A stretch of DNA of 64,000 bases from Phytophthora sp. 'mugwort'. Taxonomy: Eukaryota > Oomycota > Peronosporomycetes > Peronosporales > Peronosporaceae. The stretch covers positions 1,451,001 through 1,515,000 of the forward strand of contig JAUCEF010000010.1 of assembly GCA_033558025.1 (NCBI GenBank), in the 5' to 3' direction. Positions 35,608-46,460 of this stretch are shown here, in pieces. Positions within the stretch are counted from its first letter, which is position 1. Each line of letters starts with the position of its first letter. Below the pieces are notes generated by a model. It was not told the DNA's origin. It saw only the letters and a program-made list of their open reading frames with translations, and searched no databases. The position numbers were made by a program, and so were the translations under genes.

Positions 35608-36936
35608 ATGCGCCAAGTAGTTGACATCGGAAAGAAGCAAAAGGCTATTAAGTGGATCGCCGAGCAGGGAGGAGGCGTTGCCAGCCGTGCGGCGCCGCAC
35701 TTTCGCAAGCTGGGATGGGACGTCGGCGCGGCCACGTTCCGCAAGTGGTGGCGGAACAAGGACGAGATCATGGACGCAAAGCCGCACCAGAAGCGCGTGA
35801 ATGGTGGGGGTCGGAAGCCACTGCTTGGAGCTTCTCGAATGCCTCCTTCTCGAATGCCTCCTTCTCGACGCCATCATTGACCTCCGACTCCACAAAAAAA
35901 AAGTGACTCGAGAATGGATTGGTCTTGCTGCACGTGAGCTCTATAGTTCGCTAGATAAAGAGGTGGATCGATTTGTGGCGTCGTAGCATGAATCTCCATG
36001 TTCATGAAGCGGAATGATCTTTCGCTGCGTAAGAGAACGAATCTTACGATTCTTACGGACGAAGTGCTTGTTGGTCGCGCAGTGTGCTACATGCAGTTCC
36101 TCTCAAGCCACCTGCTCAGTTTCGACCTTGACCACACTATTCTTATGGATGAAACCGTCGTGTATTTTGAGGACCCACGAGACTCGACGGTTGATGTAAC
36201 TGGATCGCGCCATGTTGTTCTACGCTCACCGGTTTCGCGTCAATGCGCGTTACCGTCGCTGGCCGTGACAGCAACCGGACGTAAGCTTCCTCTGCTCGTG
36301 ATCTGGAAGCATAGAAACGGTAGCCGTCCAATCTCTACAGTAAGCTCTGTCTGGGTGGCCCACCACCCAAAAGCATGGGTTGACGCGGAGCTGGGGGTGG
36401 GTTGGATAAATCGCGTGTTTCCCCAAGTGCTGGACGCTCCAGACAAAGCTCTCGTCTGGGATTCGATGCGAGCGCACGTATCAAAGAAGATCAAAGCCAA
36501 ATGCAGACACCGGGACATCTTGATGTGCGTCGTGCCTGGGGATTTGACGCCGTACCTCCAGACAGGTGATATCGGCATCTATAAGGTCCTTAAAGACAAT
36601 CTCTCTGGCCTGATTAATGCGTGGAAGAACTCCGATGATGTGACATACACAGCTCGTGGAAATCTGCGCCCACTATCAGTAGAAACAGTTTGCGCCTGGG
36701 TGCGAGCGGCTTGGCGAGAAACGTTTTCTGACGTTTACGGGCGGCAATTTCAGCAGCAGTGGGGCGGCAACGACGGCGAAGCAGCTGAGGACCCATTCAA
36801 TCTCGACGAGCTCGACGAAGCGCTGGATGACGTGATGTGGTTGAGCGGTAGAAGACCTCTACGATTAGTAGACCCCCTGTCGAAACTGATAACTTGTAGG
36901 GCTACTAATAAATACAAGACCGACCACTGTTCGTAA
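35608..36936 (+). pseudogene. DDE_1 transposase of the pogo-like element
   Basis: Three consecutive frames together look like one transposase. An N-terminal helix-turn-helix (35608 to about 35820: VASRAAPHFRKLGWDVG, FRKWWRNKDEI) is followed after a frame change near two perfect 15-bp repeats (35831-35860) by LLDAIIDLRLHKKKVTREWI. After another change near 35985 a 312-codon stretch (35998-36936) carries the catalytic core. There, Asp51 (ILMDET), Asp155 (LVWDSMRAH) and Asp191 (YLQTGDIGIYK) fit a DD(35)D triad of pogo/Tigger enzymes. The catalytic Asp residues are intact, so only the two frame breaks inactivate it. A stop within the right TIR ends the frame. Confidence 0.75.
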
Positions 36937-37194: not shown

Positions 37195-40100
37195 ATGTTA
37201 TTCTTGGTGCTTTTTGCTGTCTCATCCAACAGCAACTCTCCCACTCTTCCACGTCACGCAACGTATTCACTAGCAGTGTCGATGGTCTCTACAAAGTCCA
37301 ACAAGTCGAGCCAGACAAGTGAAAAACCTTCGTGGGCATTGTCCTTAAGCAGGTCCATCAGTCGTGTGCACAGTCCTTTCAGTCTCCATACCCGACTAAC
37401 GAACGTCCTGGAAGATGATAATCAAGATGCGTTCGACCCTCATTCAAGAATGATTAAAATCTGGGATCATCTTCTACTTCTCAGTCTCTTACTCGAGGCG
37501 TTCCTGATACCATATTTGCTGGCATTTGAGCCCGAAGCTGTGACAACTGTCTCCACTCTCTTTTCACTCCTTCTTGGGTGTGAAAGTATTTTTTTACTGG
37601 ATTTGTACGTTCAAGCACAAACCGGTTATTATTCGGACGGCAATCTCATTCGAGACACGAAACTCACAGTACGAAGATACATGCGATCGCTCCAGTTTCT
37701 GCTTGATCTCGTCGCTATTCTACCGTCTCAAGGCTTCGTCGTACGACATCCGAATTTGGTGGCAAAATTCCTACTAGTGAAACTCATACGATGGTCCAGA
37801 GTGCCTCATTTCGTCTCGAGTTTGGACGAACTGTATGCGAAATATTTCGTGGCGCTTAAACTGTTTAAAGTCTTGGCATTCACAGTCTATCTGGCCCACG
37901 TCCAAGCGTGTGTTCGGTTCTGCTATGGACACGCGTACGGCATGATGACGGCAAGCACCGGGTCACATCATGGCGCGTACTTGGCGTCGCTCTTCTGGAG
38001 CGTCGGGATCATGACGGGCCTGTTCGAGGGGGAACTCCCGCACCACAGCGTCGAGTTTGTCCTTACAATTGTAGTCGCTCTGTGTGGTTTCTCCATGTTC
38101 ACGACCCTCTGCGCGACAATTTTTGTCATTTCCAAGTGCGAAAGCGGCCAAACAGAGGCGTTAGACGCACGGATTCATCAGCTCATACACGTGCTTTCGT
38201 TCCATCACGTCCCGGAGAATCAACAGACCCAAGCGGTCGAGTATCTCAAGGTTTGTACGGTTCAAAATTCTGGCTTTCATACGGGTAAAAACTGATCATT
38301 TTGTGTGTTTTTTCTAGCGTTATTACAGCGATACAGAGTCTCATGATCGTGAGACGGCCAAGCTTTTGTGTCCTTCGATCTCTACTGATATTCAAGTCGA
38401 GCTGTTGCAGTCAAGTATCGCCCAGATTTCCATCTTTCAAGATTGTAGTGAACAATTTATTGTAGCCATGACAAGTTTGCTCGAGATGATTGCGTTGCCT
38501 GCTCAAACTACGCTCTTCACTACTGGAGACGATGCTGATGCATTGTACGTGGTACATTCTGGAGTATTGGTGATTGTGATCCAGTCGGTTATGGTACGGG
38601 AGCTCCGGAAGGGCGCGTGCTTTGGAGAACTCTCGGTCTTCTCGTCGACACCACGGACATCCACGGCCATGTCCAGTACGTACGTGATTCTGTACAAATT
38701 GTCAGCTTTCCATTGTCAGCGAGTATTAGAGGGATATCCGGAGTGTGCGTCCTTAGTAGCACGTCACGTACTGCGTGACCGCGAGAAAAATACTCAAAGC
38801 AACGCAGCGTCAGCATCGACTCGACCTTTAAGTGCTACAAGGAGGACAGGCACTCGACATACTTCCATTGCTAAGGTTGTTGCTGGAGCGTCGGCGCTGG
38901 TGCGAGCGTTGTCTACGAGTCGGAAATGTGCGACGTCTTCGTCTCGACGTCGTCTTGGGCCGTGGTCGGGAAGGAAAAGTCTGGTGAGCCCCGGCCCCAC
39001 GGCGACACTGGTACATGAAAGTCGCGGTCCATCGCTTCGTCTTTGGAAATGTATCGACCATCATTCACGTACGCGCATGTGGTGGCTGTTATTGCTATTA
39101 TCAAACTTGTGTTACTGCTGGCTCGTGGTCCCCGTTCAAGTGGCGTTCCCTCTCTGGCAACGTCCAGGCTGGTGGCTTCAAGCAGTTGACAGCGTCTCAA
39201 ACGCAGCGTTGGTGCTCGATCTCGTGCTCAACTTCCGCTTGTCATTCACAGTCGACTCGGAGAAGATCACGGACGCGAACCGGAGCGCACGACGCTATCT
39301 AACAGGCAGCTTCGTTTTTGATCTGCTCTGTGCGCTTCCGTATGAATACGTTCATCTGCCCACGTACGGTCTCCTACGTCTTCCACGTCTCTTAGGGATC
39401 GTGCACTTACGTCGGCACTTGACTGAGCTGGCGTCTTTCCTACCGTTCAACAGCAAACGACAATTACTTCTGCTTGGACTGTTACTCTTCCTGATGTTTC
39501 ATGTCGTCACGTGTATTCACTTTACCATCTCGTATGTTGAGGGCTTTAACCCTCACGAAGACGAAGCGTGGATCTCCCCCATGAACGTCTGTTTGAAACG
39601 TGTAAATGCCACACACTTGGACAACTGTCACGGTGTCGTCTTGAGCGAGACGGCAGACCGACGCCAACTGCACGCGATCAGCATGTTGCAGTATGCTCGC
39701 TCGCTCTATTACGCCGTGGGGGTCCTAGCGTCTCCCGGTAAAAGTGTGGAGCCCACGACGGACGTCCAGTTGGTCGCTGCGCTCGTGTTGATGTTGAGCG
39801 GCTTCTTGATCACGGCCGTCGTCGTGGATAATGTGCAGAAGCGCGTCACGGCCTCTGCTTACGAACAGAAGGAATTTTTTGCCACGAGCACGCGGATCCA
39901 GCTCTTTTTACGGAGACAGAACGCCCCGCTGGTGCTTCATCACCGGGTCAAGTCGTTCCTTGACTATTGGTGGTCGTCGCACCGTGGCGCCGTTCTGGGC
40001 GAGCTGCTGGCAGATCTACCACGTCCGATACGTCTGGATTTGCTCAAGAGTATTTGCTTCCCGATCCGACAGACGCTGGCGTTGCTGCAGAGCGTACGGC

Positions 40101-43100
40101 CCGTGCTCATGAAGCTGGAAGAGATTCTAGTGGCAAACGCCACCTTCACGTTGTACGGTCAGGGCGAGATCGTCTATCGTCATGGAGACTCGGTGATTGG
40201 ACTCTTTTTTCTGCTAGAAGGCGACGTCTGCGTCGTGGAGAACGGAGATTCGTCACGAGAAGTACCTCGTGGAGCTTTCTTTGGCACGGCAGCACTCACA
40301 CAACAAGAACGAGGCGGAGAAGGCTATACCGAGCATGTGAGTGCAACCAGTGGGTGTATCCTCCTCCTTGTGTCTCGAGACCAATTAGACGCCATGGAGA
40401 CCGTCTTCCCCACACTTAAAGAGGAATTTCTAGCATTAGAACAACGTTTTCTTGGCAATAAGTTGTCGAGCATGCGGGCACAGAAACCGGTCCAGTCGTT
40501 GAGGAACACGTCGTCGCATATGTTCTCAAAGATCAAACAGGCGCTTGTGGCCGTGCACGACCCCGACTCGCTCTTCATCCGCGCGTGGGAGACGTGGGTC
40601 TTTCTCGTCATGACTCTTCAATGGACTCTCGTCATGTTTCAAGCCTGTTATCCAATCCACGAGCAGCACAAGAGCGTCGACGCCGTGCTGCTCTTTCTCG
40701 AGCTGTCGTTCGTCGTCGACATGCCTCTCCGCGCACGGCTTGGCTTCTACGAGTTTGGGAATAAAATTATGGAGCCTGTACGTATCGAGCGCAAGTATCT
40801 TCGCTCGGGGACGTTCGTATTGGATCTCGTGGCGCTCTTACCGCTCTACAGCGTCAATTTCGCTCTGTCTTCGCACGAACGATGGCACCTCGTGAATGTC
40901 AACAAACTGCTTCGACTATTCAAAGTGCCACGGCAGCTCCATGCGCTCGAGACAAAATATCTCAAGCACACGACGGAGCTGCGTCTGTTCAAGCTGTTGT
41001 ATTATATCTTCATGCTGTCGCATTTCTTAGGTTGTATTTGGTTTAACTTCGCGTCCCGTGTGGCCGTGCCCAGCTTCGTTCGCGGTAGTTTACGGACGAC
41101 AGCGTTCGGAGAGAACCACTGGCTGCCGTCCGAACACTTGGCGCACGGGCCGCACATTTTGCAATACATGGCGTCCTTGTATTGGTCGTTTGGGCTCATG
41201 TCGGCTTCGAGTGAGCCGGAATTCCCCAAGACGACGACGCAGTGTCTCTTTAGTGCAGCCACCATGACGACCGGCTTCTTCCTGTTCGCGTACGTGATTG
41301 GAAACTTCACGGATATTATCGAACTCAAGAGCGCCGAGACGAGAGAATTCAGTGCCAAGATGCGCTCGGTACGGAAGATGCTCGACCACTTTGAGCTGCC
41401 CGAGACGCTGCAGCAACGCGTCACGACGTTTCAGCTGTTTAAACGCTACCACAGTATCAGCCAGGAGGGGCTTCTCGTGCATTGTCTACCGCCGTCGCTG
41501 CTCACGGACGTCCGGCTCGTGCATCTTAAGCCTATGATTGAAAAAGTCGAGTTTCTAAGAGGAATGGAAGGCTCTATCACGCGTATGCTCGTGTCCCAAT
41601 TCTCCCAGGTCGTGGTCTCCCGTGGCGAGTTTGTCTGTACGTACGGCGAAAGCGGGAGCGATATGTTCTTTATCTTTGCCGGCGTACTCGACATCCTCGT
41701 ACCGTCACGGATAGCGACCCGGCACTGCAATACGTTCCAGTCTGTCGCGAGGAGTTTGGGGGTAGTGAGTCCTGTCGAGACTGAACCAAGTACCGGTCTA
41801 GATCCATTCGTTAAAGTGAATGAACTCGCTGCGGGTCAGTACCTGGGGGAAAACGGGTTCTTCACGAACGGCAAGCGCGACGTCTCTGCGCAGGCTCAAA
41901 CGACGTGTATCTTGTACCGTTTATCCCGTCACTCGATCGAGCTCGTGTTCGCCAGGTACCCCAAGTGGAAGCAAAAGGTGCTACGCATTGCAAAGATCCG
42001 ACGGGACCAAGAGCGGCTCCTACAGCTTTCACGTCAAGAACAACGACATGAAATGGCCAGCATCACTGGCTTGATGCGGTCCCGTGCCGATCTTTTGAAT
42101 GAACGGGCCGAGCGTTTAAAAGACGAGCTGGAGCACGCACGCTTCAAGCACAGCACCGGCGAACGGGTGAGTCGTCTCAATGCTACGTTCAAGATGACGC
42201 ACGTCTATCGGTTCGTCGTGATCCCGCTCCTTAACGTATGGCACGGGCTCATTCACGGCGTACCCGTTCAGACGACGTTCCATCTCATGTGGCTCCGGTT
42301 CATGGTCTTCTGCACCATGTATGTCGCAATGATGATCCCTTATCAGCTCTCTATGGACGCAATGAACCGAGATACGGTCATTGCCACCACGGCAAATGCC
42401 CTTGAGTTGCTCTGTGAAGTCGCGTTTCTTGTTGATATATGGTTCAATTGGCAGGTGCAGGAATCGCTGATGTCGTTGGAACTATACGAACAAAATCTAC
42501 GAAGTGTATACAAGAAAGAACGGATGTTCTTTGATGTCGTCGCTGCAATCCCCTTTTACGGTCTACTGTTTGTGTTTAAATGCCGTCCATGGATCAAGTT
42601 ACTGCATTGCGTCAAGATTGTTAACGTTATGGGCTACCTAGACGAGATGAATCGTCGGAGCGTAGCGAACGAACTCACCCGCTTCTGCCACGTCTGGATG
42701 ATGTACTTGGTCGTGCTCCATTGGGCGGCATGTGCCTACCTGGCCGTGGCAACGGAAATGGGGTTTGCCACAGAATGGGACTCGTGGCTTCCCTCTCAAG
42801 AGCTCGAGGTGCTGGACCCACTCAATCCTTCCTCGTCTACACTTGCTCGACGCTTTCTGCGTGGCCTCTTTTTCGCCACGACGGCTTTTGTCAAAAAGGC
42901 GCGGAATGTGGCGCCCGAGACGGCGTCGCTGTACGCGTTCCAGATCGCCATGTCTTTTGTGGGTCTTTTCACCATGTCGTTTGTCATTGGCGAGCTCGCC
43001 AGTCTCTTTATCTCATACATTGGCCTAGAAGTCGACTTTCGGAAGAACCACATCGCTGTGGAGCTTTATCTGACGCGCCTGCGTGTCAGCGACCGTCTCA

Positions 43101-44038
43101 AGTCACGGACGTACGCGTACATGACGTCGCTCTGGTCGTCTCACGCTGGCGTCAACTATGATGAACTTTTTGAAGAGATGCCACGCTCAATCCGCTTAGC
43201 TTGTGTCCTCCACGCATCCAAAGAACCACTCGAATGGTTTATCATGAAAGTCATTACACCAGTGTGTGGGGCTGGCAATGTGGCGGTACAGGCCTTTACT
43301 CTGTCCGTAGCCGACCACCTTCGGTTCGAAGGTTATCCACGCGATGAAAATGTAGTGACGGAAGGCAACATTGTACGCGCCATGTACTTTGTGACCAAAG
43401 GCCACTTGAAAATGCAGAGCAACGTGCTCCTAGATCGTCCGGTAGGGCTACGGGCAGGCAGTTACTTTGGGGAGCGGGGGCTTCTAGCGTGCACTATTAG
43501 TGCATATACCGTACGCACTGTACGAGCCTGTGATCTGTTCTCTCTGAGCTCTGAGGCGCTCACAAATGTCCTGCAACGTCATTCATTCTCTCGTCTAGCG
43601 CTCGACTTCTGTCATCGTGCGTACAAGCAACTGACAGCGAAAAACATTGTGACGTGCTCGAAACAAGACATGGAAGAGCTGTGGGGCGAGGCGCTACTAC
43701 AAACCGTTCAAGAGACCCGCAAGAAGTACGAATCAGACACAACTAGCAATGGTGAAGAGACTGCCATGGTGAACGTCGAACCTCCAGTGGTTCTGTCAAC
43801 GTCTGTTGAGGGTTCAAGTGACACGACAAGTCGACGCCAAAGCATGGAGCGAGACGGACACGTGGAGGAAACTACGAAGGAGAACGAGCACGAGAGTGCA
43901 GAACTAGAAGCTAATCTCGATATGATGCGCAAGATGCTGACAACGGCGGAGGATTGTTTTGAGGCGTTTGCACCGCTGCTTCATATGACGCTTGCGGCAG
44001 ATCCGTTAGACTGGAAAGCAGCCTTTGCAACTCCATAG
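37195..44038 (+). CDS. Four-repeat cyclic-nucleotide-gated-like ion channel
   Basis: Exon 1 is 37195-38250 and exon 2 is 38318-44038, joined across a 67-nt GT-AG intron, giving 2258 residues. Four tandem units each contain S1-S6, a C-linker and a cNMP-binding-type domain (CNBD). The S1-S6 blocks fall at about 88-312, 604-857, 1104-1357 and 1640-1920; the CNBDs at about 390-494, 947-1060, 1434-1567 and 2014-2114. CNBDs I, III and IV keep FGELSVF, LGENGFF and FGERGLL in the phosphate-binding cassette; II reads FGTAAL and is likely non-binding. Pore helices are canonical (SLFW, SLYY, SLYW, GLFF) but no repeat has GYG. Aligning the conserved Pro four residues downstream, the filter position (Glu in animal CNGA pores) is Glu278, Lys827, Glu1318 and Arg1881. 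S4 charge is modest in I-III and nearly absent in IV. The start could instead be Met30. By family it is a membrane cation channel; selectivity is unknown. Confidence 0.9.
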
Positions 44039-45119: not shown

Positions 45120-45179
45120 GCGCTGCTTGAAGCAAGAGCCTCTTTTTCTTCCGACCAATACTCCTTCGATTCCTCCAAG

Positions 45180-46460
45180 ATGCTGACTAAGCTGGTAGTG
45201 GCGCTGGCCGCTGTGGCCGCGACTGTGGCTCAAGCCGAGACGATCTTCCGTGAGACGTTCGACGACGCCGACTGGGAGAGCCGCTGGGTGGCCTCCACGT
45301 GGAAGCCTGCGGCCGAGGTGGGCAAGTTTGAGCAGGTGGCGGGCAAGTACTACACGGAGGAGGGCGACAAGGCCGTCAAGACGAGCGAGGACGCACGCTT
45401 CTACGCGCTGTCGGCCAAGTTTGACAAGCCGCTGGACAACAAGGGCAAGGATCTGTACCTGTCGTACTTGGTGCAGCACGAGCAGAAGCTGGACTGCGGC
45501 GGCGCTTACATCAAGCTGCTACCTGCGGACACGGATCAGACAAACTTTGGTGGTGACTCGCCTTACGCCATCATGTTCGGCCCCGACATCTGCGGCAGCA
45601 CCAAGAAGACGCATGCCATCCTAAACTACGCCCGCCCTGGCGAGGATGCCGTCAACATGGACCACAAGGACACAATCCGTGCCGAGTCGGACACGGACGC
45701 CCACCTGTACTCGTTCATGCTTAAGCAGGACAATACGTACGAAGTTAAGATCGACGGCAAGATCATCAAGGAGGGATCGCTCGTCAAGAGCTGGCCCTTC
45801 CAGCCCGAGCAGCAGATCAAGGACCCCAACCAGTCTAAGCCCAAGGACTGGGTGGACGCCAAGGAGATCCCCGATCCGGAGGACAAGAAGCCGGCTGGCT
45901 GGGACGACACCCCCAAGACCATCCCTGACCCGGACGCCGAGAAGCCCGAGGACTGGGACGATGAGGACGATGGAGAGTGGGAGCCCGCCATGATCGAGAA
46001 CCCCGAGTACAAGGGCGAGTGGAAGCCTAAGATGATCGACAACCCGGACTACAAGGGCGAATGGGTGCACCCGCTCATTGACAACCCGGACTTTTTCGAG
46101 GACGATGCTATGTACAACGTTGCCAAGAACGTCGGCGCCATCGGCTTTGAGCTCTGGCAGGTTAAGAGTGGCACCCTGTTCGACGACATCCTGGTCACGG
46201 ATAGTGAGGATGAGTTCGCCGCCCACGAGGAGGCTGTACTCGCCAAGACGGAGGCCATGGCTGCCAAGAAGAAGCAGATCCAGGACGAGGAGAAGGCCAA
46301 AAAGGAGGCCGAGGCTAAGGCCAAGGAGGCTGAGAAGGAGGACGCCGACGAGGCGGACAACGAAGAGACCGATGAGGATGCCGCCGAAGAGGCGGAGGAG
46401 ACCAACGAGGAGGCTGAGGAGACTGAGGAGGAGGAGAAGGCCGAGAAGGACGAACTGTAG
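45180..46460 (+). CDS. CRT: Calreticulin
   Basis: 426 residues, one exon. A signal peptide (about 1-19) leads to a lectin-like N-domain with both family signatures: HEQKLDCGGAYIKLLP (Cys106) and IMFGPDICG (Cys138), the pair that forms the conserved disulfide. The P-domain has three type-1 repeats (IKDPNQSKPKDW, IPDPEDKKPAGWDD, IPDPDAEKPEDWDDED) and three type-2 repeats (GEWEPAMIENPEYK and two relatives). The C-domain is a long Glu/Asp/Lys-rich, calcium-buffering tail ending in the ER-retrieval signal KDEL. It acts in the ER lumen as a calcium-binding lectin chaperone for monoglucosylated glycoproteins. Length and order are those of standard calreticulin. Codon use is strongly G/C-ending, as expected for a highly expressed gene. 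It is convergent with the DHHC gene. Confidence 0.97.
   Translation: MLTKLVVALAAVAATVAQAETIFRETFDDADWESRWVASTWKPAAEVGKFEQVAGKYYTEEGDKAVKTSEDARFYALSAKFDKPLDNKGKDLYLSYLVQHEQKLDCGGAYIKLLPADTDQTNFGGDSPYAIMFGPDICGSTKKTHAILNYARPGEDAVNMDHKDTIRAESDTDAHLYSFMLKQDNTYEVKIDGKIIKEGSLVKSWPFQPEQQIKDPNQSKPKDWVDAKEIPDPEDKKPAGWDDTPKTIPDPDAEKPEDWDDEDDGEWEPAMIENPEYKGEWKPKMIDNPDYKGEWVHPLIDNPDFFEDDAMYNVAKNVGAIGFELWQVKSGTLFDDILVTDSEDEFAAHEEAVLAKTEAMAAKKKQIQDEEKAKKEAEAKAKEAEKEDADEADNEETDEDAAEEAEETNEEAEETEEEEKAEKDEL

Follow-up and report, generated by a model that had tools for sequence, protein, structure and literature searches.

The 64,000-nucleotide stretch of the Phytophthora sp. 'mugwort' genome (assembly GCA_033558025.1, contig JAUCEF010000010.1, positions 1,451,001 to 1,515,000; hereafter the window, to which all coordinates refer) carries on its forward strand, at 37195–44038, a gene which is predicted to encode a single-chain channel of four repeats with cyclic nucleotide-binding domains (CNBDs), without the GYG filter and with an asymmetric charged filter ring of Glu, Lys, Glu and Arg (E/K/E/R). 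Because relatives of this gene occur across the oomycetes, the channel type is taken to be genuine, and it seems not to have been described before; the E/K/E/R ring itself is, according to the alignments, real but confined to one clade. The function considered most probable, with a rough probability of 0.4 and therefore tentatively, is that of a low-conductance channel for monovalent cations modulated by cyclic nucleotides, pseudo-tetrameric within one chain and representing an oomycete-wide family.

Gene model and filter register

The gene and its filter positions are as follows (all forward strand; residue numbers of the 2258-residue frame).

37195..38250: exon 1, N-terminus and S1–S6 of repeat 1 (Pfam, translation); likely true start Met30 at 37282
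38251..38317: predicted 67-nt GT-AG intron (splice-site scan; junction residues uninterrupted in homologue P0001)
38318..44038: exon 2, 1906 codons and stop; C-linker and CNBD1, then repeats 2–4 with CNBD2–CNBD4 (open reading frame, Pfam)
38026..38028: repeat-1 ring codon GAG, Glu278 (Glu249 from Met30), by PDB alignment; acid in 133/133 readable rows
39740..39742: repeat-2 ring codon AAA, Lys827, by family alignment
41213..41215: repeat-3 ring codon GAG, Glu1318, by PDB alignment; Glu limited to the Phytophthora/Nothophytophthora clade
42902..42904: repeat-4 ring codon CGG, Arg1881, by PDB and family alignments
42893..42898: repeat-4 Lys1878-Lys1879, filter positions -3 and -2, by family alignment

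Joining of 37195–38250 with 38318–44038 gives a single open frame of 2258 amino acids. Alternative in-frame GT-AG introns are possible, and 38251–38317 was chosen by eye for the best acceptor tract; the residues across the junction (EYLK followed by RYY) run on without a break in annotated homologues, for example P0001: AIEYLKRYYTDTESHDRETAK. The four S1–S6 plus CNBD units and the spliced frame described in the first-pass annotation, which was made from the letters of the sequence alone, were recovered, and its start at 37195 was given up: since near homologues begin with MV...SEK-SW-LSL, the counterpart of which by eye is Met30 at 37282 (MAFFT aligned the first residues of these homologues, with a gap in between, to residue 8), Met30 is probably the true start, giving 2229 residues and all residue numbers reduced by 29.

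In Pfam searches Ion_trans was found in exon 1 with 41.6 bits (cut-off 25) and in exon 2 with 108.6 bits (two stretches over threshold) together with four cNMP_binding stretches. The 1906-residue frame of exon 2 is kept in many species and is not due to chance. Split proteins or an assembly artefact were ruled out, because in 124 of the 162 aligned family rows, from many species, a single annotated chain includes the four ring positions together, many of these rows being gene predictions and not transcript proof.

In HMMER comparison with PDB, where the best 60 matches per repeat were considered and the channels among them were all CNBD channels, the best match of each repeat was a cyclic nucleotide-gated (CNG) or KCNH channel, with S1–S6 followed by C-linker and CNBD. 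Repeat 3 matched best with CNGA3 (E 1.8e-30) and repeat 4 with CNGA1 (E 1.2e-25), both gapless from SLYWS to the post-filter Pro, and repeat 1 with CNGA1 (E 1.2e-16), likewise gapless through the filter, so that E278, E1318 and R1881 sit directly opposite the Glu of TIGE (TIGETPPP). Repeat 2 was closest to KCNH1, a channel with GFG filter (E 2.3e-24), and K827 was placed by the family alignment because the KCNH1 alignment has one gap inside the filter. Of 612 readable repeat cells, 611 have a Pro at +4 from the ring position, and neither GYG nor GFG was found in the four repeats or in any pore of the 162 rows. The ring codons named previously (38026, 39740, 41213 and 42902) lie exactly where they had been placed, and the missing GYG, the Pro four residues further on and the equivalence with the CNGA filter position, all claimed from the letters, were borne out.

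Spread of the ring among oomycetes

Three protein searches gave 116 proteins, 166 matches (120 of them listed) and 42 proteins, the matches being 90% clusters in which several species are present as more than one strain or paralogue. As far as read among those listed, the matches carrying an organism name are all from oomycetes, of the genera Phytophthora, Nothophytophthora, Pythium, Globisporangium, Lagenidium, Aphanomyces, Saprolegnia, Achlya and Thraustotheca. The final alignment includes 162 rows, namely 21 named Saprolegniales and 141 others, designated here as Peronosporales-type; it leaves out P0111–P0116, P0127 and P0141 (fragments, a kinesin-fused model, GYG proteins and merged tandem models), and of the earlier alignments one was built without P0113–P0116 and another without P0111–P0116. 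The clade tree (filter columns removed) and the tree for the deeper layer were obtained with FastTree.

The repeat-1 ring position is E or D in each of the 133 readable rows. At repeat 2 the Peronosporales-type rows have K or R in 124/136 (Glu in 3, uncharged residues in 9) and the Saprolegniales have R in 9/20, L in 10 and H in 1. At repeat 3 Glu is found in 39/140 Peronosporales-type rows, the others having P (29), Q (24), T (24), A (14), S (8), L (1) and D (1), and the Saprolegniales have P (15) or K (6). At repeat 4 R or K occurs in 131/139 and 2/21 rows, respectively, and the Saprolegniales rings are mostly E/(L,R)/P/I. E/K/E/R is the most frequent of the 124 full rings (26), followed by E/R/P/R (24). 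Two members from the biocontrol species Pythium oligandrum read E/R/Q/R (P0046) and E/K/T/R (P0063). Among 104 Peronosporales-type rows the net ring charge is +1 (65 rows), 0 (34) or -1 (5); among 20 Saprolegniales rows it is 0 (8), -1 (8) or +1 (4).

Conservation of E/K/E/R in oomycete homologues, on which the first-pass annotation had let its proposal depend, was thus found in part. In the Phytophthora/Nothophytophthora clade 37 of 42 rows show no departure from it at any readable position, the remaining five reading ERER, ESSY (twice), EKEY and -KEY, so that even Phytophthora is not uniform, having E/S/S/Y and E/K/E/Y members. As a family-wide signature it fell once Pythium-type and Saprolegniales members were added, since the repeat-3 Glu is clade-limited (elsewhere mostly P, T, Q, A, S or K) and the repeat-4 base is missing in 19/21 Saprolegniales. 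Exceptional conservation of the ring was also rejected for repeats 2–4: among the 49 nearest rows, which take in seven from outside the 42-row clade, the fraction of columns at least as conserved was 0.41–0.52 for these positions and 0.17 for that of repeat 1. Judged from the alignment, the better signature of the family is the invariant repeat-1 acid, the Pro at +4 in every repeat and a usually single base three residues deeper.

In the same genome, where the search scored only the best candidates, the strong matches were this gene and one paralogue on contig C9 (about 40% identical, ring E/K/T/R), other matches being remote. The intron is not common to this paralogue, because one tblastn match continues unbroken across its place. 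No downy mildew or Albugo name was found among the named matches listed, no search having been aimed at those groups, which could be a hint of loss together with flagella. Among the homologue matches P0127, P0141, P0113 and P0139 are very long or fused database models, with two channel copies in Aphanomyces and kinesin-type or reductase-type Pfam domains in Phytophthora; these are probably merged neighbouring genes.

A single base one layer deeper

The layer at -3 corresponds to the Thr of TIGE, three residues deeper than the ring. Exactly one basic residue is present there in 103/103 fully readable Peronosporales-type rows, always in repeat 4 (K1878 here), and in 16/20 Saprolegniales rows, where it is located in repeat 1. 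K or R occupies position -2 of repeat 4 in every one of 139 Peronosporales-type rows and in none of 21 Saprolegniales rows. For the -3 base parsimony requires two changes in repeat 1 and three in repeat 4. The layer may demand one base, recalling, as a possible analogy, the lysine migration in sodium and leak channels, whose filter lysine stands in domain II or III depending on the animal, as a part of PMC3557258 describes. In P0156 and P0157 from Aphanomyces the repeat-1 base is His instead of Lys, and the layer could be pH-dependent in these proteins.

Repeat pairing and ligand sites

A quick maximum-likelihood tree (IQ-TREE) was built from 57 pore/C-linker stretches, 40 of them from ten family members and none from CNGK. 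Each repeat formed its own group, and repeat 1 joined repeat 3 (97%) and repeat 2 joined repeat 4 (98%). The simplest reading is that the array, A-B-A-B, may have arisen by duplication of a two-repeat (A-B) channel. The ligand domains follow the same pairing (all forward strand; Pfam and alignment, limits approximate).

38444..38761: CNBD1, residues about 395–500; cassette Glu456 (38627) and Arg465 (38654) kept
40124..40411: CNBD2, residues about 955–1050; cassette Glu and Arg absent (FGT, Tyr)
41549..41971: CNBD3, residues about 1430–1570; Glu1530 (41849) and Arg1539 (41876) kept
43319..43591: CNBD4, residues about 2020–2110; cassette Arg absent

In the family alignment the phosphate cassette has Glu in 128/128 and Arg in 122/127 rows for CNBD1 and in 160/161 rows each for CNBD3; for CNBD2 Glu is found in 0/161 and Arg in 0/162, and for CNBD4 an acid in 152/155 and Arg in 2/155. 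According to these counts CNBD1 and CNBD3 keep the predicted ligand-site residues, and the key Arg is lost from CNBD2 and CNBD4. The ring of Phytophthora follows the same A-B-A-B rhythm, since A repeats combine an acid with a ligand site and B repeats a base with a lost one.

Comparison with known channels

The closest architectural counterpart is CNGK/tetraKCNG of sea urchin, zebrafish and choanoflagellate, which is likewise one chain of four repeats, each with a CNBD, and in which repeats 1 and 3 and repeats 2 and 4 are related in the same way (part of PMC7576140), as in our repeat tree; however, CNGK has a GYG/GFG filter and is K+-selective (part of PMC4749565), while the oomycete channel has neither motif. 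Animal CNGA/CNGB chains are nearest by sequence to repeats 1, 3 and 4 and are the best fold match of repeat 3 (top Foldseek matches of an AlphaFold model of residues 733–1922, located on repeat 3 by VIA-align), sharing the post-filter Pro, the aligned filter position, the C-linker and the CNBD, but they are separate subunits with TIGE filters, and the Glu that CNGA has in all subunits is replaced here by a mixed-charge ring on one chain. Two-repeat CNBD channels of oomycetes, whose architecture is plausible for the A-B precursor, are also tandem proteins but have TVGYG or close variants (PMC7576140, in part). Nav and NALCN channels (DEKA, DKEA, EEKE, EKEE) share the single chain, the asymmetric filter and one lysine that changed its repeat in evolution, though they belong to another branch of the superfamily and have fewer filter bases. 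The lysine-filter four-domain Cav/Nav-like channels with D/D/K/D and A/G/K/E come from the same organisms and also have a filter lysine, but form another family, the term 'CNBD' being absent from the main text of Pozdnyakov 2018 (PMC5824947).

In a limited literature search no published channel with an E/K/E/R-type ring and no four-repeat channels of this kind in oomycetes were found, in agreement with the earlier statement that no described channel with this ring was known to its author. P. infestans genes for CNG channels, not tied to this gene, are among the spore-induced genes in a part of PMC5322657; the zoospore membrane proteome names ten voltage-gated channels, this architecture not being among the descriptions in the portion concerned (PMC12223298); and the relevant section of a 2016 review of oomycete calcium signalling counts CNGA1 homologues in large numbers (as many as 25 in P. 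infestans and 40 in S. diclina) and does not describe this architecture.

Within the family a single scaffold carries a range of naturally occurring asymmetric pores, among them E/K/E/R, E/R/P/R, E/K/A/K, E/L/P/I and E/S/S/Y, in a superfamily branch whose selectivity is generally deduced from channels with identical or nearly identical subunits. Such pores could reveal directly how small a number of charges settles whether cations, anions or no ions pass, and whether what holds for the lysine of sodium channels is true more widely. Among the oomycetes are important pathogens of plants and of fish, for which the ion channels of motile spores matter.

Proposed mechanism and alternatives

Architecture, filter alignment, conservation, repeat pairing and the missing ligand residues of two CNBDs are observed, whereas ligand, ion, direction and location are inferred in what follows. 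The A repeats (1 and 3) have the residues needed to hold a cyclic nucleotide and the B repeats (2 and 4) have lost the key Arg; the four pore loops would make one CNGA-type filter with the Pro at +4, the invariant repeat-1 acid and no GYG, in which, in Peronosporales-type members, repeats 2 and 4 are usually basic and one lysine is added a layer deeper. Cyclic adenosine or guanosine monophosphate bound to CNBD1 and CNBD3 would open this pore in the plasma membrane or flagellum; the open pore would pass monovalent cations with low conductance, and the filter lysine would disfavour Ca2+, as the lysine in Nav and NALCN does. In Phytophthora the ring takes on an alternating acid-base-acid-base order. 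Monovalent cations are favoured on three grounds: the acid of repeat 1 that does not vary, the acids further out, and the precedent of lysine in other channels.

Several points weigh against this proposal. In 99/104 Peronosporales-type and 12/20 Saprolegniales rows the net ring charge is 0 or +1 and so exceeds the -1 of DEKA and the -2 of EEKE, and the Lys pair of repeat 4 brings still more positive charge. Nav and NALCN, which are not known to have a CNBD, are from another superfamily branch and their filter is built differently. The shift of the -3 lysine is essentially a single deep event between the two orders, because parsimony needs so few changes, and four of the 20 Saprolegniales rows depart from the one-base rule (two with His, one with two bases and one with none). 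CNBD3 has mostly Asn or Ser at the place of the CNGA1 Thr. As CNGA1 stands beside repeats 2 and 4 in the repeat tree (80%) and the branches outside the family are poorly supported, the A and B repeats may instead have had separate origins. The AlphaFold model of residues 733–1922 (36 rows) is mediocre, with mean predicted local distance difference test (pLDDT) 68.8 and predicted template modelling score (pTM) 0.53, and covers three of four pore quadrants. Finally, no measured current for any family member was found in the literature.

The alternative that survives best, though it is held to be rather doubtful, is a plugged, non-conducting pore in which ring acids and bases pair off, the protein being a ligand or voltage sensor or conducting through its voltage-sensor domains like HCNL1, a CNBD channel with a non-conducting pore domain and proton passage through the voltage sensors (part of PMC11700363). 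A filter without GYG and with opposite charges, and rings that differ among paralogues, would be in line with this; however, the Pro frame, the repeat-1 acid and, with four exceptions, the single-base layer are kept in both orders, for which a dead pore has no obvious need.

It is unlikely that the bases at ring positions 2 and 4, together with the Lys1878-Lys1879 pair, make an anion-permeable or mixed channel, passing Cl- or other anions under cyclic-nucleotide control. The ring charges given above and the extra base at -3 in 103/103 rows speak for it, and CNGA2 mutants changed at the filter Glu reportedly switch to anions. Nevertheless, the CNGA2 homotetramer mutant would presumably have four bases and this ring has two at most, repeat 1 always has its acid, most Peronosporales-type rows have further acids at +2/+3 of repeats 1–3, and 8/20 full-length Saprolegniales rows have no ring base. 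A bolder version, regarded as quite unlikely, is that a CNBD lineage independently evolved a single-base filter, in repeat 4 of Peronosporales and repeat 1 of Saprolegniales, and that the Glu/Lys/Glu/Arg ring of Phytophthora is anion-permeable or bipolar, a natural counterpart of those CNGA2 mutants. An ordinary Ca2+-permeable CNG channel with ring residues of little effect is very improbable despite database entries that were named, apparently automatically, 'cGMP-gated cation channel alpha-1' and the like, and despite CNGA1 and CNGA3 as nearest solved relatives of repeats 1, 3 and 4, since one of the four CNGA filter acids remains (two in Phytophthora) and nearly all members have a base in the filter, at 0 or -3.

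Other multi-repeat channels and neighbouring genes

The same genome has at least five further long frames (L009–L013, contigs C3 and C8), about 19–24% identical in most tblastn pieces, which likewise join several CNBD-channel repeats in one chain, their filters being degenerate (GYD, GYG, GSR, FYG and similar); at the cut-off used four filters were found in three frames and three in two frames. Three of these copies lie within about 95 kb on contig C3. P0114, from the protein searches, has four GYG pores.

Directly upstream of the channel gene a transposon-derived frame of the DDE_1 superfamily endonuclease type (48.8 bits) lies at 35992–36936 on the forward strand. Downstream, at 45177–46457 on the same strand, there is a calreticulin-family gene (288.7 bits), the frame of which ends with an acidic tail and KDEL.
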